A stretch of 64,000 bases of DNA, from the NCBI RefSeq assembly GCF_023078495.1, contig NZ_CP095742.1, positions 682,001 to 746,000 of the forward strand. Reading direction: 5' to 3'. This DNA is from Luteibacter aegosomatissinici (GTDB lineage Bacteria > Pseudomonadota > Gammaproteobacteria > Xanthomonadales > Rhodanobacteraceae). The position numbers were made by a program, and so were the translations under genes. The notes beneath the pieces are model-generated. The model made no database searches. It was not told where the DNA came from and saw only the letters and a list, made by a program, of their open reading frames with translations. Below, piece by piece: positions 17,130 to 27,700 of this stretch. Within the stretch, counting starts at the first letter, position 1. Every line of letters begins with the position of its first letter.

Positions 17130-17227
17130 TAGTGTTAAGATTGGGTAATGCGGAGCTTAGGGGCCGCTTACGCGCACTCCTTAAGCATTCCCGGCGCATT
17201 ACCCGTTCCCGATCTAGAGGTCCCACT

Positions 17228-19408
17228 GTGTCAAATCCCACTGGTGTATCCCGGTATTCATTGCTGTGGCTGGCGCTCGCCGCGCTTCTTCCTGTTGGGC
17301 TGCATGCCCAGACCGCCGACGGTACGGATACCGGCGAGAAGAAAGTGAATAAGAAGGCCACCACCCTGGATGCGGTGAACGTACAGGGGCAGGCGGTATC
17401 CACGTACACCACCGACCAGTCGGCCTCGACCACGCGCCTGCCGCTCACCCTGCAGGACACGCCGCAGTCGATCAGCGTGATTACCGATCAGCGCATCAAG
17501 GATCAGAATCTCACCAGTTTGCGTGCCGTGCTCGATAACACGACCGGCGTGAACTCCACGGCCTACGATTCCGAGCGCGTGGTGTTCTGGTCGCGCGGTT
17601 TCCAGATCGAAAACATGTCTTACGATGGGGTGCCGATCGCATCGAGCCTGAATGTCAGCTCGGCCGATTCGTCGCTCGATCCATCGATCTACGAGCGCAT
17701 CGAAGTGATCCGCGGCGCCACCGGCCTGCTTAGCGGCGCGGGCAGCCCCTCGGCTAATATCAACTTCGTGCGCAAGCATGCCGATAGCCGCACGGCCGAG
17801 GCCGATGTATCGGTCAGCTATGGTTCGTGGAATACCCAGCGCGAGACCGTGGATGCACAGACGCCGCTGAATGCGTCGGGCACGATCCGTGGCCGCTTCG
17901 TCGCGGCCCATGAGGATGGCGATTCGTACATCGACCGTTACCACAACCAGAAGAACGTGGCTTACGGCGTGATCGATGCCGACCTGGACGAGAACACCAC
18001 GCTGAGCGTGGGTTACGACTGGCAGAAAACGCGCCCGACGGGTGTGACCTGGGGTTCGTACCCGGTGCTGTATCAAGACGGTGGCATTATCAAATGGCCA
18101 CGCGGCTTTTCCTCGGCGGCTGACTGGACGCATTGGAACAACACCACGCAGACGGCGTTCGCCGACCTGAAGCACAGCTTCGATAACGGCTGGCAGCTGC
18201 ACGCCATGGCGAGCCACCGCAAGACGGATGCGGATTCGTCCCTGTTCTACGTGTACGGCGCGCCTGATCGCGAGACCGGCGAAGGCCTGATTCCGTACGC
18301 CTATAAGAGCTTCCAGCGCGGCAGCCAGAACAATCTCGACCTTTACGCCTCGGGGCCGTTCCAGGCCTTCGGCCGTGAGCATGAACTGGTGGTGGGCCTC
18401 ACCGATTCGCACTACCGCACTGATTACTTCGAGTACCCGCACGGCGATTACCTGCCGGATATCGGTAACTTCCTGCAGTGGACCGGTGATTACCCGTATC
18501 CGGATTTCTCGTCTACGGCCGATCGCGTGTCGATCGCTCGTACCGAACAAAGCGGCGCCTACGCGGCGGCGCGCCTGCAGCTGGCCGATCCCCTGAAGCT
18601 GATCGTGGGTGCGCGCTATTCCCGCTGGAAGAACGACACCAACGACAGCACCGCGGGCATTTACCACGAGACCGCCAGCAAGACGATCCCGTACGCCGGC
18701 CTGATCTACGACATCACTCCGAACTACTCGGCGTTCGCCAGCTACACGCAGATCTTCGATCCGCAGAACAACCGCAAGGAAGATGGCAGCTACCTGGAGC
18801 CCGTGCTCGGGACCAGCCGCGAGGTGGGTATCAAGGGCCGCCACTTCGATGGCGCCCTGAACACCTCGCTGGTGTTCTTCGAGACCAAGCAGGATCACGT
18901 CGCCGATGCGCTGCCGGGCGTGTACCTGCCCGATGGCATCACCCAGGCCTACCGCTCGGTGGATGGCACCACGTCGCGCGGCTATGAGTTCGAAGCCTCT
19001 GGCGCGCTGTCGAGCAACTGGAACGGCACCTTTGGCTGGTCGCACTTCAACGTGAAGTCGCCCGATGGCGGCGCGCTGCGCCCGTCGCTGCCGCGCACGC
19101 TTATCCGCGTGTTCACCACCTACACCCTCCCGGGCGAATGGAGCGGCCTGACCGTGGGTGGTGGCGTGAACTGGCAGGGCCCCTCCAAGGCCGATATCGA
19201 CGACGGCTACGGCGTGGTCCGCCTGTACCAGTCGTCGCAGACGCTGGTCAGCGCCATGGCCCGCTACGCCTTCAACGACCACGCATCGGTCCAGTTCAAC
19301 GGCGACAACCTGCTAAACCGCAAATACTACGTGCTCGACGACGCCAGCAACCTGTACTACGCGCCGGGCTCCACCTGGACGGTATCGTTCAACTTCAAGT
19401 TCTTCTGA
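17228..19408 (+). CDS. TonB-dependent siderophore receptor
   Basis: An outer-membrane receptor of 726 residues. It has a signal peptide (SRYSLLWLALAALLPVGLHAQ), a TonB-box-like LDAVNVQGQ, a plug domain (LPLTLQDTPQSISVITDQRI, IEVIRGATGLLSGAGSPSANINFVRK) and a 22-strand barrel ending in FNFKFF. The ending DTPQSISVI and IRGATGL are typical of the FpvA/FoxA siderophore group. It lacks the N-terminal STN signalling domain, so no ECF-sigma relay is expected. GTG 17228 was chosen because AGAGG precedes it and the signal peptide then follows directly; the frame is open upstream to 17132. The Fur-like site upstream supports a role in iron uptake. The siderophore is unknown. Confidence 0.9.
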   Translation: MSNPTGVSRYSLLWLALAALLPVGLHAQTADGTDTGEKKVNKKATTLDAVNVQGQAVSTYTTDQSASTTRLPLTLQDTPQSISVITDQRIKDQNLTSLRAVLDNTTGVNSTAYDSERVVFWSRGFQIENMSYDGVPIASSLNVSSADSSLDPSIYERIEVIRGATGLLSGAGSPSANINFVRKHADSRTAEADVSVSYGSWNTQRETVDAQTPLNASGTIRGRFVAAHEDGDSYIDRYHNQKNVAYGVIDADLDENTTLSVGYDWQKTRPTGVTWGSYPVLYQDGGIIKWPRGFSSAADWTHWNNTTQTAFADLKHSFDNGWQLHAMASHRKTDADSSLFYVYGAPDRETGEGLIPYAYKSFQRGSQNNLDLYASGPFQAFGREHELVVGLTDSHYRTDYFEYPHGDYLPDIGNFLQWTGDYPYPDFSSTADRVSIARTEQSGAYAAARLQLADPLKLIVGARYSRWKNDTNDSTAGIYHETASKTIPYAGLIYDITPNYSAFASYTQIFDPQNNRKEDGSYLEPVLGTSREVGIKGRHFDGALNTSLVFFETKQDHVADALPGVYLPDGITQAYRSVDGTTSRGYEFEASGALSSNWNGTFGWSHFNVKSPDGGALRPSLPRTLIRVFTTYTLPGEWSGLTVGGGVNWQGPSKADIDDGYGVVRLYQSSQTLVSAMARYAFNDHASVQFNGDNLLNRKYYVLDDASNLYYAPGSTWTVSFNFKFF

Positions 19409-19661: not shown

Positions 19662-20525
19662 ATGGGGCTGCGGCCGGATTTGCCCTACGATCCGCGGATG
19701 GAAAACGCCCCCCACTTATCGTCGAAACCCGGAAGCCTCGCCCTGGTCGGCATGGGCATGACCCTGGGTTCCCACCTCACCCCGATCTCCCGCAGCCACA
19801 TCGAACAGGCAGATGTCGTGTTCGCCGCTCTCTCGGACAACCTGGTCGAGGAGTGGCTGAAGCGCATGAACCCCGATGTACGCAGCCTTCAGGGCTACTA
19901 CGCCGAAGGCAAGTCGCGCATGGTGACCTATCGGGAATGGCTCGACGTGATCATGGCCGAAGTGCGCGCCGGTAAGCAGGTATGCGCTGTGTTCTATGGC
20001 CATCCGGGAATCTTCGCCTGGACGCCCCATATGGCGATCGCGGCCGCTCGGGCGGAGGGTTACCCGGCGCATATGGAGGCAGGTGTCTCTGCCGAGGATT
20101 GCCTTTACGCCGATCTGGGTATCGATCCGGGACGATTTGGTTGCCAGCATTTCGAGGCCAGCCAGCTGATGCTATACGACCGTCAGATCGACAACGCCGG
20201 GTATGTCGTCCTTTGGCAGATCGGGCTAGTGGGCGATACGACCCTCGCGCGCTTCGCGACTGGCGCAGAGTATCGCCAGGTGCTCGTCGACCGCCTCAGT
20301 AGGGATTATCCGCTCGACCACGAAGTGATTATTTACCGCTGTGCCACCTTGCCGATCCACGATGCGCGTATTGATCGCATTACCTTGCGGGATCTGCCGG
20401 GTGCGTCCGTGACGGTGGCGGAAACGGTCATCCTGCCGCCGGCACGGGAGATGAAGCCGAACCTGGAAGCTTGGGCACGCGTGAAGGAGCTGGACGCGGA
20501 GGCGAGAACCGTCACGCAGTCGTGA
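19662..20525 (+). CDS. Borosin-type peptide backbone N-methyltransferase candidate (tetrapyrrole-methylase fold)
   Basis: A 287-residue SAM-dependent methyltransferase with the corrin/porphyrin methylase fold. The SAM loop is LVGMGMTLGSHLTP (28-41). Residues 79-94 (YYAEGKSRMVTYREWL) fit the YxxGKxRxxTYxxM pattern with the Tyr and Arg that catalyse backbone methylation in OphMA and SonM. YGHPGIFAWTPHMAIAAARA and MEAGVSAEDCLYADLGIDP (112-155) are the other family landmarks. Unlike fungal OphMA it has no precursor fused at its C-terminus; a small separate gene follows 59 bases later. That is the layout of bacterial split borosins. The start is uncertain: 19698 (MENAPHLSS) is also possible. A different methylase role cannot be excluded. 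Confidence 0.82.
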   Translation: MGLRPDLPYDPRMENAPHLSSKPGSLALVGMGMTLGSHLTPISRSHIEQADVVFAALSDNLVEEWLKRMNPDVRSLQGYYAEGKSRMVTYREWLDVIMAEVRAGKQVCAVFYGHPGIFAWTPHMAIAAARAEGYPAHMEAGVSAEDCLYADLGIDPGRFGCQHFEASQLMLYDRQIDNAGYVVLWQIGLVGDTTLARFATGAEYRQVLVDRLSRDYPLDHEVIIYRCATLPIHDARIDRITLRDLPGASVTVAETVILPPAREMKPNLEAWARVKELDAEARTVTQS

Positions 20526-20584
20526 CATAATCGGCAAAGCGCAAGGGGGGCGGGGGCCTTCCGCGTTCAAGGGGAACTACAACA

Positions 20585-20902
20585 ATGTCCGATTCGATCG
20601 ATTTGCTCGAAGCCGTCGGCGGCGACGCATCACTGCGCCACCTGCCACCCAATGAGCTCGCCATCCGCCTCCGGGCCGCAGGTGCCTCTGAGGCACTTGC
20701 GTGCGCGGCAATTCAGCGCGATGGTGGTCCGCTCAGCAAAGAATTCGGTACGCGCGTCATGCAAGAGCCAAATTCAGGCCACTTCCCATTCCGCGACGCA
20801 CCCACGCCGCCACTGCAGACGCCCTCGCAGGACGAGGAAGAGGACGCGGATGGGTCGGATGGCGGACAGCAAGCTCTTTCCGCCGCAGCTAACACCCACT
20901 AG
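20585..20902 (+). CDS. Candidate split-borosin precursor peptide
   Basis: A 105-residue protein between the methyltransferase and a cyclase gene, with AAGGGGA before its ATG. Residues 1-55 (SIDLLEAVGGDASLRHL, then IRLRAAGASEALACAAI) look like the short helical recognition domain of SonA-type precursors, which begins with an LxxLGxDAxL pattern. Residues 56-105 (GTRVMQEPNSGHFPFRDAPT and an acidic DEEEDADGSDGG) would hold the modified core and follower. The tail is proline and acid rich and lacks the Val/Ile-rich core of known borosins, so the methylated positions cannot be guessed. It ends seven bases before the next start. The role as substrate is inferred from context. Confidence 0.6.
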   Translation: MSDSIDLLEAVGGDASLRHLPPNELAIRLRAAGASEALACAAIQRDGGPLSKEFGTRVMQEPNSGHFPFRDAPTPPLQTPSQDEEEDADGSDGGQQALSAAANTH

Positions 20903-20909
20903 GGGAGCC

Positions 20910-22685
20910 ATGATGCTAGCCCGCCTGCATGGAATCGCGAGGGCATGGCTCATTGGAGCGATGCTCGCTTGTGTGGCGGGTGATGCATGGGCGACATCCC
21001 CCAGGGTTGATGTCACTGCGCTCCTCGACGAAGCGGATTCTGCCATTCGGACAGACAATGCGCGCGTCATAACCTTGCTGGCGCAACTTCGCCCAGAAGT
21101 CTCTGAAATGACAGTGGGGCAGCGGTGGCGTTTGCGGTTCCTCGAGGCCTCAGAGGCGCAGTACATGGGGCGTTACGCAGAGGCAGAAGCTGGTCTGCGA
21201 GATGTCATGGACCACTCGGGGCACGCTGGACTGGCTGCGCGTGCCATGGGCCTGTTGATGTCGAATTACTCCTTCGGCAGGCGCTATGAGGATGCCTACA
21301 CCGTAGCGCGCCGCGCCGTGGGCGTCCTGCCGGGGCTCCGGGATCCGCAGGCCAGGCAGTCCTTGCTCAGTAACCTGTCGCAGACATTAAATTTTGCAGG
21401 GCATCCCGAGACCGCGATCCAGTACGCGCGGATGATCGCGGCTGATCTTCCGGCAGGTGAATCCCCGTGCAGCGCCATGGCGCTTGAAATGGCTGCGCGC
21501 TATACGCAAAAGGATCTGAGATCAGATAGCCGGGATCTCGGCAGGGCGATTGAGGCGTGCACCGCTTCGGGGTCTCCTGTTCTTGCGAACATGATGTGGC
21601 TTACCAAGAGCACTTTGCTAATCGAAGAGGGGCAGCCGGATGCTGGCCTGGCTGTTCTTGATCGTATTGCGCCATCGGTCGAGCGCGTTGGTTATTTTGC
21701 TGGGCGTGCTTCGCTTTACAGCCAGCGAGGGAATGCCTATCTGGCCCTCAATCGTAACGATGATGCCAGAAGGGCCGCCGAGGCGACCGTTGCGCTGTTC
21801 AAGCCGGGCGCACAGGATAATTTCCTCATGGACGCTTATCACGTCCTGTACGAACTCGCGAAGCGTGATCGAAAAGACGCGATCGCGCTTCTCTGGTATC
21901 AAAAGTTCGCAGACCTCGAACGTCGAAACGTCGATGACCTTAGTGCGCGTACGCTCGCATACGAAGCCGTTCAGCAACGCGCGCTGCTACAGGGCCTCGA
22001 AGCCGACAAGCTTGCCGAACAAAATAATGCGCTGAAGCTCGAGAAGGCTTTATCGGTCAAGGCGGTTGAAACCAGTCGTCTGTACATTGCCCTCCTGGCC
22101 ATCCTCCTTGGATCGGTCATCTTTTGGCTGTTTCGTACCAAGCGATCGCAACTCCGGTTCAGGTATATGTCTCATCACGACGGGCTTACCGGCGTCCTGA
22201 ATCACCAGCATTTCATGTCTGAACTCGAGCGTGCATTGCATGATCTAGAACGACGAAATGCGCCCGCCTGCCTCGTACTTCTTGATCTTGATCACTTCAA
22301 ACACGTTAACGATACATACGGCCACGCGATCGGTGATGCCGTACTCAAACGGGCTACGGCAACGTGTGGTCAACAACTACGTCGCGCAGACATCTTCGGC
22401 CGGCTTGGCGGTGAAGAATTCGGGATTCTTTTGCATGAGTGCCACCCTGAGCAGGGGCTGGTCATCGCCAACTGTATCCGTGCGGCCATTGAAGCAACAC
22501 CAGTGACCATTGATGGTCTCATCGTGAAGTATTCCACGAGCATAGGCGTCGCGTGCACGATGATCTCGGGCTATGGGTTGCAAAGCCTGAGGCGAGAGGC
22601 GGACGCAGCGCTATACCGAGCCAAGGGTGCCGGCCGCAATCGTGTCATGACCGACCTTTTGGGCGATGGGCTCGTTGGTGCTTAG
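20910..22685 (+). CDS. Periplasmic TPR-like sensor diguanylate cyclase, copy 1
   Basis: A 591-residue protein with a signal sequence (IARAWLIGAMLACVAGDAWA) and about 370 residues of helical TPR-like repeats (for example YAEAEAGLRDVMDHSGHAGL). A coiled coil (EADKLAEQNNALKLEKAL) and one membrane segment (LYIALLAILLGSVIFWLF) follow. A cytoplasmic GGDEF domain carries an intact GGEEF at residues 500-504. It should make cyclic di-GMP in response to a periplasmic signal. ATG 20910 has AGGGGAG upstream. It starts seven bases after the candidate precursor gene, so the three genes form one operon. The neighbour at 22758 is a paralogue with the same order of parts. Confidence 0.85.
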   Translation: MMLARLHGIARAWLIGAMLACVAGDAWATSPRVDVTALLDEADSAIRTDNARVITLLAQLRPEVSEMTVGQRWRLRFLEASEAQYMGRYAEAEAGLRDVMDHSGHAGLAARAMGLLMSNYSFGRRYEDAYTVARRAVGVLPGLRDPQARQSLLSNLSQTLNFAGHPETAIQYARMIAADLPAGESPCSAMALEMAARYTQKDLRSDSRDLGRAIEACTASGSPVLANMMWLTKSTLLIEEGQPDAGLAVLDRIAPSVERVGYFAGRASLYSQRGNAYLALNRNDDARRAAEATVALFKPGAQDNFLMDAYHVLYELAKRDRKDAIALLWYQKFADLERRNVDDLSARTLAYEAVQQRALLQGLEADKLAEQNNALKLEKALSVKAVETSRLYIALLAILLGSVIFWLFRTKRSQLRFRYMSHHDGLTGVLNHQHFMSELERALHDLERRNAPACLVLLDLDHFKHVNDTYGHAIGDAVLKRATATCGQQLRRADIFGRLGGEEFGILLHECHPEQGLVIANCIRAAIEATPVTIDGLIVKYSTSIGVACTMISGYGLQSLRREADAALYRAKGAGRNRVMTDLLGDGLVGA

Positions 22686-22757: not shown

Positions 22758-24551
22758 GTGCCGAGTCGTTTGATTTGCCGTGCGATTCGCCGAGTGATGG
22801 GCTGGTGGTCGCATCGCGCGTTCGCGTGCATCGTACTCTCGATAATGGCCTTCACACAGGTATTGCCCACACCTGCGGCCAATCTCGATAGCAACGAAGC
22901 CTTCCTCAAGCAAGCCGAATCCATCGCCCTGGCGGACCATCCCCGGTTCCTTGGGATGCTTGCACAGCTGAAGACGATGATGCCTTCACTGGATACGCAC
23001 CAGCAGTGGCGGGTACGGTACCTGGAGGCGTGGGAACTTGAGTATGAGGCACGAAGCTACGAGGCAGAGCCGAAGCTGCACGACATCGTCGCGCATTCCG
23101 GCTCGAAGGCCCTTGTCGCCAAGGCCATGGCGCAGCTCTTGTATGGCTATTCAGCCACGCACCGTTTCAAGGAGACGTTCACGCTAGCGAAGCAGGCGGC
23201 GGAGCTTCTTCCGACACTGGATGATCCCAAGGCCCGTTTTTCGCTGCTTAGCCACCTCTCGCAGGAGCTGAACATCGCGGGAAATCCTTCAGTTGCGCTC
23301 CAATACGCGCGGATGATGAAGGAAAGCCTTCCCCCGGGCGGCACGTTGTGCGAACCCCTCGCGCTTGAGCTCGCCGCGCGATACAACCTGAAGACGGTGC
23401 GCTGGGATAGCCCGGAATTTCCCGCCGCGGCCAAGCTTTGTGAGGCGGGCGGCGAACTCGTCTACGGCAACTCTATCTGGCTGAACCAGGCCACCTTGAT
23501 GGTCGAGGCGCATCAACCACAGGCCGCGGCGGTCATTCTCGATCGCATCGCGGCGTCGATCGAACGCAACGGCTACCAATCGGGCCAGGCTTCCTATGGG
23601 CTGCTCCGCGCACAGATCGCCGAACAGATGGGGCGCGATGATGAGGCCCGGAAGACTGGGCTGGCAGTGCTTGCCATGTTCAAGCCAGGCGAGACGGATA
23701 TCTTCCTGCGCGATATCTACGAGATGCTTTACCGGATTGAAAAGCGTGCTGGCAACACGACGGCTGCACTCGGGTACTACCAGGAATTCGCGGTCCAGGA
23801 TCGCGCGTATCTTGACGATGTGTCGGCGCGCGAGCTGGCTTACCAGGCAGTGCAGCAGCACTCCCTGATGCAGAAAGCCGAAGCCGACCGTCTCGAGCGG
23901 CAGAACCAGGTGCTTCAGTTGGAGAATGCCCTGGCGAAGAAGGCGACGGAAACCAGCCGCCTCCACGTCGTTCTCCTGGGTGTCGTGCTCGTTACCGTGC
24001 TGGCCTGGACGTTCCGCATACAGCGTTCGCAGCGGCGCTTTCGCCTGCTTTCCCAGAACGATGGCCTCACGGGTATTTTCAACCACCAGCACTTCATGGA
24101 TGAGCTGGAAGCGGCCTTAGGCGAGATGAAACTGCGGCGCTCCACCGCATGCCTTGTCCTTCTCGACCTCGATCACTTCAAGGATGTGAACGACACCTAC
24201 GGCCATGCCGTCGGCGACGCCGTGCTTCAGCGGGCGGTCGCCACCTGCCAACAGATCCTTGGGCCGTCAGACTTGTTTGGTCGCCTGGGCGGCGAGGAAT
24301 TTGGTGTACTGCTGCCTGGGCGCGAACTGCCGGACGCTGCGGCGATCGCGGACGCCATCCGCGCGGCGATGGCGTCGACACCGGTATCGATCGATGGGCT
24401 GGTCGTCGAGTACTCAACCAGTGCCGGCGTTGCATCGACCCGTGATTCGGGCCACGACCTGCACCAGCTACGTAAGGACGCCGATGCCGCGCTCTACCTG
24501 GCTAAGCGCTCGGGTCGGAACCGGGTCATGACGGCGTCGTTGAAAGCCTGA
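22758..24551 (+). CDS. Periplasmic TPR-like sensor diguanylate cyclase, copy 2
   Basis: A 597-residue paralogue of the preceding protein: signal sequence (ACIVLSIMAFTQVLPTPAA), helical repeats, coiled coil (EADRLERQNQVLQLENALAK), membrane segment and GGDEF domain with GGEEF at residues 511-515. DLDHFKDVNDTYGHAVGD is intact, so it should be an active cyclic di-GMP synthase. The start is uncertain: GTG 22758 has no strong ribosome site, and ATG 22797 (MGWWSHRAF) would also keep the signal sequence. It lies 72 bases after copy 1 and ends one base before the convergent EAL gene. Two tandem sensors next to a RiPP-like pair is unusual. Confidence 0.82.
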   Translation: MPSRLICRAIRRVMGWWSHRAFACIVLSIMAFTQVLPTPAANLDSNEAFLKQAESIALADHPRFLGMLAQLKTMMPSLDTHQQWRVRYLEAWELEYEARSYEAEPKLHDIVAHSGSKALVAKAMAQLLYGYSATHRFKETFTLAKQAAELLPTLDDPKARFSLLSHLSQELNIAGNPSVALQYARMMKESLPPGGTLCEPLALELAARYNLKTVRWDSPEFPAAAKLCEAGGELVYGNSIWLNQATLMVEAHQPQAAAVILDRIAASIERNGYQSGQASYGLLRAQIAEQMGRDDEARKTGLAVLAMFKPGETDIFLRDIYEMLYRIEKRAGNTTAALGYYQEFAVQDRAYLDDVSARELAYQAVQQHSLMQKAEADRLERQNQVLQLENALAKKATETSRLHVVLLGVVLVTVLAWTFRIQRSQRRFRLLSQNDGLTGIFNHQHFMDELEAALGEMKLRRSTACLVLLDLDHFKDVNDTYGHAVGDAVLQRAVATCQQILGPSDLFGRLGGEEFGVLLPGRELPDAAAIADAIRAAMASTPVSIDGLVVEYSTSAGVASTRDSGHDLHQLRKDADAALYLAKRSGRNRVMTASLKA

Positions 24552-27509
24552 TCAGTGCTGCAGGACGACATCACCCGCCGGCTGTGTTCCCAGAAAATCC
24601 ACCAGCGCATCAAACGCCATCGGCCTTGCCCGATGAAACCCCTGCACACTGTCACACCCGGCAGCAACCAGCCAAGCCAGTTGGGCCTGGGTTTCCACGC
24701 CTTCAGCAACCACCGTCATGCCCAGCGTGTGCGCCAGCGTGATGATCGCGCGGCAGATCGATGCGGAACGTTCGTTCGTGGATACATCGCTGACAAACAC
24801 GCGATCGATCTTCAACGAATCGATCGGCAGGTCGCGCAGGTACGCCATGCTCGAGAAGCCGGTGCCGAAATCATCGAGCGAGACGTGGGTGCCTTGGGCG
24901 CTAAGGCGGCGCATGGCGGCCATTGCCGAACGGCGGTTCGCCATCAGGCTGCTTTCGGTGAGCTCGATAGCCAGGGCGCCGCGCGGTAATTCAAAGCGGG
25001 TGATCGCGTTACCCACATCGGTAGCCACATCGGTACGCTGGAACTGCACGGCAGAGACATTGACGGCAATGGTCAGCGCACCGTGGCCGGCGCGCGCCAG
25101 CGCGACGTGGCATTGCGCGGCTTCTTCGAATACCCAGCGGCCGATCTCGACGATGAGCCCGGTCTCTTCGCTGAGGGGGATGAAGTCCTCGGGCGACACG
25201 AAGGTACCGTCCGCCGCGGGCCAGCGAAGCAACGCCTCGAGCTTCTCTACCGCCCCGGTGGTCGCATCGAGGATGGGCTGGAAATGCAGGATGAATTCGT
25301 TCTGGTCGATGGCCTGGCGAATGCGCGACGCCATGCGCAGGCGCTCGATCGAACGCTCGGCCATCGATGCGTCAAACGGGCGGGGCAGGCCGGAGGTTTC
25401 ACCATGGAAGTGCGCGGCCATCGCAGCGGCGGCAATGATCTGCTCGGCACTCGTGCCATCGGCCGGGTGCGTGGCTACGCCGATCTCGGGATCCAGCGCG
25501 TGCCAGGTGCCATCCAGAAGCACGGGCTCGCTTACGGCAGATGTCAGCGCTTCAATCGCCCGCTCGCGCTTGTCCGGCTGCATTACCGCGAGCAGGAATC
25601 GTTCGCTCGGCCGGTGCGCCGCCATGCCGAAGTCCGTGCCAAGAGTCGCAAAGCGACGGCCCACCTGCTGCAACACAGTGCGGCCGGCCTCCAGTCCGTA
25701 GGTGTCGGAAATCAGGTCGAGTCCACGCAGGTGCACGTAAATCACCTCGTACCAACGCCGCGTACCGAAGCGCCTGTCGAGGAAATCGGTAAGTGCTTCT
25801 GTGTTGGCGAGGCCCGTGAGCATGTCGTGCGAAGCGCGCCAGGCAAGGTCGCGCTCGGCACGGCTTCGTTCGGTTACATCCTCGGCCAGCACCAGTCGCG
25901 CGTGGTGGCCCATGAATTCCAGGGCCGTCGTGTGGATGCGCACATCGAGCAGGCTGCCATCCTTTCGCCGGTGCACCCACGTGCGGCCCATCATCGTGGC
26001 GACATCCTGCGTGGCCAGGGCGTGCTGGAGTGGGGCGACCTCCGATTCGGGACGGATATCGATCACGGCCATGCGCAGGAACTCGGCGCGGGTATAGCCG
26101 TAATTACGCATGGCGGCCGCGTTCACCTCCAGGAACTCCAGGCTATCCAGGTCGAAGACCCAGGCGGGCAGGGGCGTACGCTCAAACATCAGGCGGAAGC
26201 GCTGTTCGGCTTCCGCGAGCTGGCGCTGGGTCTCGATGCGGCTGGTGGCATCCACCACCGTGCCGGTCATCGCTTTTTCACCATCGATATCGACGATGGC
26301 CCCGGTGCCTGAAATCCAGCGCTGCGTGCCGTCGGGGCGTAGCCAGCGGAAATCGAGATTCAGGGTGGCGCCGGTCTTCCACGCATGCACGAACGCGTCG
26401 CGTGAGCGCTCGACATCCTCCGGGTGGATGTAGTTGTAGAACGTCGCATCGTCGATGCCGTCGCCGGTGGCGGCGACACCGAGCATGCCTTCCACCTGCG
26501 TGTCCCATGTGAGCCGGTTGCGCCGGGCATCGGCGCGCCACGTGCCGGTGTGGCCGAGCCGCTGCGCTTGCCGCCAGCGTTCGGTCGCCTCAGTTAGTTC
26601 CGATACGTGGTGGCGCTGGGCCACGTCGGCCTCGGCGACACGCCGGTAGAGGAACGCGAAGCCAAGCCAGTACAGCACCCACACGGCGATGCTCACGCCC
26701 AGGAAGTTGTACCAGGGGCCCATGTAGTCGCGGACCGCAATGCCTACACCGACGCCGAGCGGGTACATCGCAGGATCGTTCGATGCGACCAGGCGCTCGG
26801 TGTTGTCGAGCTTGCTCAGCCCGACATCGCCGCCGAGACGGCCAGGCGCCCAGAGCACGGAAACCGGCTGGCCCGCCACGTCGTCGCCTGAGCCCGTGCG
26901 CGCCACGATGATCGCAAAACGATCGGTGATCGCCGTGACCCCGTGTCGCCCGGCGTCGATGTGGTCCACGACATCCTGGAACTGCGCCTGGCTGACACGG
27001 GCGAACACCCAGCCCCCGCGGGGCATCGGCAGGGCGACGGGCATGTTCCAGCGGCCATCCGGGCCCCTTGCCAACGGCCCCAGCGCCAGCGCTGCGGCAT
27101 CGCCGGGGCGCGTGGTCGCCCACTCGCGAAGGTGGGGATCCGGCGTGCCGCTTGTGATCGCCCGGCCCGTGGCATCCACCAGCATCAGGTCACGGAGTTC
27201 GGTTTTGCGCTCGCCCACGCCGGCGATGTTCTTTGCGATCAGCTCGCTGGCCAGTGCCGGCGCGGTACTGTCGATATCCTGCACATCACGCACGATTCCC
27301 TGCAGGGCGCGCTGCAAGCCATGCAACTGCGCATCGAGCAGGCGCTGGGCGCCACGGGCAAGGGCGTGCCCCTGGCTACGCGCCCCGGCGGCGCGCCGGG
27401 AGTAGTCATGCATGAGTACGACGGCCAGCACGGCGCCCAGGGCGATGCCCACGATGATGCCCGCCGTGCGAATCAGGCGAATGGATTGGCGCGACGGAAG
27501 ATCTGCCAT
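24552..27509 (-). CDS. Membrane PAS-GGDEF-EAL protein, probable cyclic di-GMP phosphodiesterase
   Basis: A 985-residue protein. Two membrane segments flank a periplasmic sensor of about 280 residues near the N-terminus, followed by two PAS domains (around 330-440 and 450-570), a GGDEF-like domain and a C-terminal EAL domain. The GGDEF position reads RPSERF, so the cyclase half is dead. The EAL half keeps the EAL triplet at residues 758-760 (KLEALLRW), [24 protein letters not shown] and AEGVET, so it should hydrolyse cyclic di-GMP. ATG 27509 (MADLPSRQ) follows AGGGG; the longer frame to 27617 has no support. It converges on the cyclase pair and may oppose it. Confidence 0.9.
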
Positions 27510-27700
27510 GAAGCCCCTGCTCGGTCCGCAACCCGCCGTGGCAGCGAGCCATTCTCGCGGTTCCCCCGTGGGCCGCGTGGGTAACGTGTACCACAGGAGG
27601 AATCTTTTCGTGTGCAAGGACCGATCCGGCCAAGGCCGACCATAGGCAATGGCGTTATGCTTGCCTGCCAGGCATCCCCCTGTAACCCCGAGGAGTTCCC

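Follow-up and report, generated by a model that had tools for sequence, protein, structure and literature searches.

The window analysed here, a 64,000-nucleotide stretch of the 4.99 Mb genome of Luteibacter aegosomatissinici, contains what is best explained as a split borosin pair, a methyltransferase and a separate precursor peptide, lying in a four-gene run with two genes for TPR-GGDEF proteins, and we put the probability of this reading at about 90%. All four genes are on the + strand, in the order methyltransferase, precursor, TPR-GGDEF protein 1 and TPR-GGDEF protein 2. A first-pass annotation had proposed the pair, and its coordinates, lengths and spacing are correct (287 aa at 19662–20525, 105 aa at 20585–20902, 59 bases between the two genes). 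It had left out the rest of the operon, which encodes two proteins that each combine a TPR region with a membrane segment and a cyclase domain bearing GGEEF. The features, with the evidence for each in brackets, are as follows.

19662–20525, + strand: predicted SonM/OphMA-type backbone alpha-N-methyltransferase, TP-methylase fold, 287 aa (phmmer against PDB, Pfam PF00590)
19899–19931, + strand: active-site segment Y80..R86..Y90, equivalent to SonM Y58, R67 and Y71 (alignment to SonM)
19995–19997, + strand: Y112, equivalent to SonM Y93 (alignment to SonM)
20570–20575, + strand: AGGGGA, putative ribosome-binding site for the precursor (read from the sequence, 9 bases upstream of the ATG)
20585–20902, + strand: separate borosin precursor, 105 aa (homologues near methyltransferases, SonA profile match, codon-position pattern)
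20585–20749, + strand: borosin-binding domain (leader), residues 1–55, five helices (AlphaFold2 model, Foldseek)
20762–20797, + strand: segment at the SonA core position, residues 60–71 (QEPNSGHFPFRD), presumed methylation region (putative position, by alignment to SonA 1–62 and relatives)
20798–20899, + strand: Pro/acid-rich C-terminal extension, residues 72–105, predicted disordered (sequence, AlphaFold2)
20910–22685, + strand: predicted sensor diguanylate cyclase 1, 591 aa from the chosen ATG (Pfam, membrane segment and motif reading)
22758–24551, + strand: predicted sensor diguanylate cyclase 2, 597 aa (Pfam, membrane segment and motif reading)

The top PDB relative of the protein at 19662–20525 is SonM (phmmer E 8.7e-74), and OphMA is matched at an E of about 2e-48, in agreement with the SonM/OphMA-type enzyme claimed earlier. 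Pfam assigns PF00590 (TP_methylase) at 70.2 bits, and two NCBIfam equivalogs reach 14–16 bits where their cut-offs require 391 and 400. The catalytic pattern that had been claimed is present as Y80-AEGKSRMVT-Y90, and in the phmmer alignment Y80, R86, Y90 and Y112 line up with Y58, R67, Y71 and Y93 of SonM. The first-pass annotation had made its claim depend on conservation of the catalytic Tyr and Arg, and each of the four residues is kept in 79/79 aligned proteins (the window protein and 78 relatives). According to the extract of PMC8429565 that deals with SonM catalysis, substitution of these residues lowers catalytic efficiency, with SonA as the varied substrate, by 1.6-fold for Y93F, 14-fold for Y58F, 97-fold for R67K and 98-fold for Y71F. 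The enzyme carries no fused clasp or core, as had also been stated, and the precursor is encoded separately. Its true start may be M13 (19698) rather than 19662, because the similarity of homologues fades upstream of M13. One could instead suppose an ordinary corrin or porphyrin methylase beside an unrelated small protein, which the Pfam fold name would suit. However, a single tetrapyrrole enzyme, a precorrin-2 methylase, appears among the 26 PDB sequences matched by phmmer, and its E of 0.96 against about 1e-73 for SonM rules out such an identity for the enzyme; with the borosin active-site residues invariant and a SonA-like partner adjoining, this supposition is exceedingly improbable.

As a single query, the precursor gives no Pfam or NCBIfam family match and only a chance chain in the PDB. 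A profile built from 56 such precursors and run against the PDB gives a specific answer: its best seven matches are distinct SonA sequences at E 7.7e-6 to 4.7e-5 and the next match stands at 0.15, such that only SonA falls below E 0.1. The match spans positions 1–62, which bears out the SonA-like N-terminal half described earlier; SonA itself is divided into a binding domain (1–53), a linker (54–61) and a core (62–71) in the extract of PMC8429565. AlphaFold2 places helices at residues 2–13, 15–19, 22–31, 36–44 and 48–54 of the window precursor with block pLDDT values of 78–92 and leaves the tail unstructured. Foldseek of this model against the PDB returns five matches, all to SonA, and because their E values are only 3.7–9.2 the predicted fold supports the relationship without proving it.

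The reality of the small gene is addressed by codon positions. When the window precursor is compared with two homologues (from genomes G007 and G010), the third position changes most, with 26/45 and 28/51 of the differences in residues 1–55 and 29/61 and 32/67 in the tail, as would suit a real gene with weaker constraint on its tail. Homologues of the precursor are found near methyltransferases in relatives. A spurious small open reading frame is ruled out by these homologues together with the SonA profile match and the codon-position pattern. The division into leader and core is mirrored in tandem precursor arrays, where identity among copies is 0.68 in the binding domain versus 0.42 in the core for 11 precursors of G009, and 0.66 versus 0.38 for seven precursors of G019. 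Copies within one locus are non-independent, and the better-kept binding domain is as would be expected of leader and core.

Sequence comparison thus establishes the methyltransferase homology, the active-site residues and the binding domain, and four features of type IV borosins given in the extract of PMC8429565 are found here: OphMA/SonM homology, the Tyr/Arg/Tyr/Tyr set, separate genes and a predicted five-helix leader. The closest known system is the type IV pair SonM–SonA of Shewanella oneidensis, which likewise consists of a separate methyltransferase and precursor from adjacent genes, has the same four active-site residues, and has a five-helix binding domain at residues 1–53 of SonA as compared with 1–55 here. 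It differs in that SonA has 71 aa and the window precursor 105 aa with an acid-rich extension, and in that the methylated residues of SonA are Leu and Ile whereas the core position of the window is polar with prolines. OphMA and other fused fungal borosins have the same methyltransferase domain and active-site residues, but in OphMA a single chain includes the clasp and the core, and the window substrate is a separate protein.

By analogy with SonM–SonA, we infer that the methyltransferase binds the precursor and methylates its backbone. The five-helix domain (residues 1–55) would dock on the methyltransferase dimer, the docked leader would position the segment that follows in the SAM-dependent active site, and backbone amides of the core-position segment would then be methylated, with the acid-rich tail as a separate extension. 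One relative, L170, has methyltransferase and precursor in one frame, and reading the intervening stop as serine gives a fused chain. The model of this chain has a mean pLDDT of 80.7 and two confident domains, the binding domain included, and comes without an interface score. Its best structural match is SonM (TM 0.91 on the target). OphMA entries follow, aligned over roughly 360–380 columns at about 14–16 Å rmsd. The model supports the individual domains and does not prove docking, on which the first-pass annotation had also made its claim depend.

Both sensor proteins of the window have TPR matches below the Pfam cut-offs, a GGDEF match well above, and a membrane segment between. In cyclase 1 the membrane segment is at 391–409 and GGEEF at 500, preceded by RxxD; in cyclase 2 they are at 403–421 and 511, without RxxD. 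The two TPR regions are 46% identical. Because the N-terminus of cyclase 1 resembles a signal peptide by eye, its TPR region is predicted to be periplasmic, whereas the precursor has no signal peptide by eye, a mismatch that counts against the overall reading. Both sensor proteins are probably diguanylate cyclases, which would make c-di-GMP.

The larger question is what a borosin does beside such a sensor, since we know of no established role for most bacterial borosins. Either the modified peptide or the precursor would act through the TPR sensor on c-di-GMP. In one hypothesis the core, once methylated, is set free and passes into the periplasm, where the TPR domain binds it and thereby switches the cyclase or histidine kinase output. 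The gene pairing and the co-occurrence described below hint at such sensing of the modified peptide, a hypothesis that we hold tentatively, at less than even odds.

The first evidence for peptide signalling is the association of the genes across relatives. A methyltransferase match at E<=1e-20 is found in 64/101 genomes (own included), at 93 places that resolve into the 92 loci of set 1, with L091 holding two. A single-sequence precursor search matches 38 genomes, all within these 64, and an iterated profile finds 115 precursor ORFs in the 92 fetched loci. A precursor lies near the methyltransferase in 81 loci, a full-length TPR-GGDEF gene in 86 and both in 77 (82, 87 and 79 under looser counting). 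In set 2 (80 loci kept from 91 matches, two of them without a methyltransferase ORF) the corresponding counts are 77 for the precursor, 75 for a GGDEF-like gene and 73 for both; the two sets share organisms and are not independent. In another order, that of G445, 37/40 loci have a TPR partner (31 TPR-GGDEF, three histidine kinase and three TPR alone, as classed by similarity) and 33/40 have precursor and TPR partner together, these 40 being drawn from 70 places, mostly the best-ranked, plus one, L215. The genes for precursor and TPR sensor are conserved together as a unit.

No precursor was found near the methyltransferase in 11/92 loci, which weighs against the split borosin reading. Other observations count against peptide signalling. 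Six loci have no full-length TPR-GGDEF gene nearby (L070, L085, L089, L116, L133 and L130, the last with its upstream side cut off). A class-level search finds the methyltransferase in 9/369 genomes, and of seven more distant loci at this level two have precursor and TPR partner and five have neither, so the TPR-partner link falls short of covering all relatives.

Co-occurrence was also counted independently of locus, using the TPR region as query, which is present in 59/101 genomes. Both TPR region and methyltransferase occur in 58, the methyltransferase only in six, the TPR region only in one (G095) and neither in 36, which favours peptide signalling with a Fisher p of 5.8e-20 uncorrected for kinship. 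All of the six methyltransferase-only genomes except G090 contain a diverged GGDEF relative within the methyltransferase locus. Within the family, the TPR region is found in 46/46 genomes with the methyltransferase and 0/15 without (again uncorrected for kinship), and genus g17 includes one genome with both and another with neither.

The second line of evidence is the modularity of the sensor. The TPR region is constant and the output domain beside it is exchanged among GGDEF, HisKA-HATPase-receiver and TPR alone. The histidine kinase class is confirmed by Pfam for L214, L215, L235 and L237, which have HisKA, HATPase and receiver domains, and two proteins of L225 have TPR alone; for L249, L232 and L258 the class is by similarity. 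The conservation of the cyclase also speaks for signalling: all 102 full-length cyclases of set 1 have GGEEF and a membrane segment directly before it, and 65 have RxxD upstream. The methyltransferase can also be joined to the sensor, as a single 859-aa ORF at 2288–4867 of L128 is a natural fusion of TPR, GGDEF and methyltransferase domain.

The third line of evidence is the multiplication of precursor-cyclase pairs. Three successive pairs lie beside one methyltransferase in L066 (5184–12120) and two in L081 (5592–10002). Genomes of the genus, the own genome among them, have 20 cyclase places without a local methyltransferase, and at 12 of these a precursor lies immediately upstream; at the other eight none was found, and these orphan cyclases weigh against peptide signalling. 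An alternative hypothesis is that the cyclase merely times borosin production, or that co-expression ties a secreted peptide to biofilm growth, with the peptide itself untouched by the sensor. The gene arrangement would suit this, as only 7 bases on the same strand separate the precursor stop from the start chosen for cyclase 1. However, such timing leaves unexplained the repeated pairs, the stand-alone pairs away from a methyltransferase and the swap of output domains, and we consider it unlikely.

The own genome contains two methyltransferases, three precursors, five TPR-region matches and 34 GGDEF domains. A second complete unit of methyltransferase, precursor and TPR-GGDEF gene is found at L078 (G000:C1:1797476-1800448), with a methyltransferase 66% identical to that of the window and a precursor tail rich in His and Asp. 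At L261 (G000:C1:3128932-3131036, - strand) an acid-tailed precursor and a TPR-GGDEF gene occur without a local methyltransferase, and this arrangement recurs at 11/19 other places examined.

The composition of the precursor beyond its leader bears on a further hypothesis. The first-pass annotation described a proline- and acid-rich core, under which two parts should be kept apart: a Pro/polar segment at the core position (about 60–71) and an acid-rich extension (72–105). Its expectation of a product unlike those described holds in part: the acid stretch is an extension typical of precursors before a TPR-GGDEF gene, and the core position is polar with prolines here but hydrophobic in many relatives. 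This polar, proline-containing core position counts against the borosin reading, since a proline nitrogen cannot be methylated and SonA is methylated on Leu and Ile. The extension that follows is rich in Pro, Asp and Glu. An acid tail was defined by a length of 25 residues or more and an Asp/Glu content of 20% or more, and the window tail, at 18%, falls just below the latter cut. In set 1, an acid tail is carried by 69/81 precursors immediately upstream of a TPR-GGDEF gene versus 1/33 others, a count that covers 114/115 precursors with one fragment of <60 aa left out and uses a distance rule for adjacency that mislabels at least L060 5108. The contrast is weaker in the overlapping set 2, at 66/77 adjacent precursors versus 6/12 others, three of the latter six (L139, L176 and L201) being at a cut contig or stretch. 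The acid-rich extension therefore tends to accompany the sensor gene; away from that gene, most precursors stop near the core.

Such tracking of cyclase adjacency is what would be expected if the precursor stays uncleaved as an intracellular methylated adaptor whose acid tail serves the adjacent cyclase or helps that cyclase insert into the membrane, and the lack of a recognised protease nearby would agree with this. However, the tail is no general trait of precursors, since the short-tailed ones in arrays stop near the core as SonA does. The TPR region, moreover, probably lies across the membrane, and the tail contrast weakens in set 2. We regard an uncleaved adaptor as doubtful.

Two arrays, L062 5822–9412 with 11 precursors and L058 5823–8082 with seven (oriented along the methyltransferase), have short varied cores and carry the acid tail on the last precursor alone, the one before the cyclase. 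In L074, L078, L080 and L082 the precursor tails have His and Asp runs (HDDHHHHH-like), which from their composition could possibly bind metal.

Peptide signalling would call for release and export of the core, and here the neighbourhood counts against it. In a limited survey of ORFs of at least 110 aa in the fetched stretches, clustered and kept if present in at least 8/92 loci, none of the conserved neighbours was recognised as a transporter or protease. Besides the methyltransferase/TPR-GGDEF cluster, which is joined through the L128 fusion, four clusters were obtained: one precursor group, two that look like shadow ORFs by eye, and one other in nine loci. Shewasin A is linked to a Shewanella borosin, and a search of the own genome for a pepsin-like peptidase, run without a positive control, gave no match. 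Coevolution does not discriminate either. In partial Mantel tests over 77 loci with one pair each, core and TPR region correlate at r 0.34 after methyltransferase and GGDEF are accounted for, but the binding domain, although it should track the methyltransferase, correlates with the TPR region at r 0.43, and the core–TPR value is set aside for this reason. Both results, no recognised exporter or protease and a non-discriminating coevolution test, call for caution over the reading in which the TPR domain senses the modified peptide.

Peptide-sensing TPR domains are familiar from the RRNPP peptide-pheromone receptors, which are cytoplasmic, mostly have a DNA-binding (or phosphatase) output and respond to peptides that are not N-methylated. 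The likeness is an analogy only, as the GGDEF or histidine kinase outputs and the membrane segment found here lie outside the RRNPP definition. The GGDEF domain has already been named among borosin architectures, in the Figure 1 legend of PMC11395268, and a natural TPR-GGDEF-methyltransferase fusion is present here in L128. The legend was also the only mention found in a literature search joining borosin with GGDEF, and searches joining borosin with diguanylate cyclase, tetratricopeptide or shewasin found none, the main classification papers being outside the search; we claim no priority for the link between TPR-GGDEF proteins and borosins.

The window pair is one more split borosin, unusual in that its core position is polar and an acid-rich stretch extends the precursor. 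Its partner matters more: the frequent association with a TPR sensor whose outputs can be exchanged points to a role that can be tested directly, in which a methylated peptide would act on c-di-GMP or two-component signalling in Luteibacter, Dyella, Rhodanobacter and similar environmental bacteria. More broadly, many gammaproteobacterial borosins might be ligands of a receptor family rather than antibiotics, with a periplasmic TPR sensor of swappable output through which methylated, protease-resistant peptides set c-di-GMP, a speculation for which we see the odds as rather poor.

The run is flanked upstream by a TonB-receptor-like ORF (17132–19408, labelled by eye) and downstream by an ORF of 1021 aa on the - strand that has a GGDEF match (24552–27617), each of which recurs in only 5/92 loci. 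A genome of the same genus, G013, carries this locus too.
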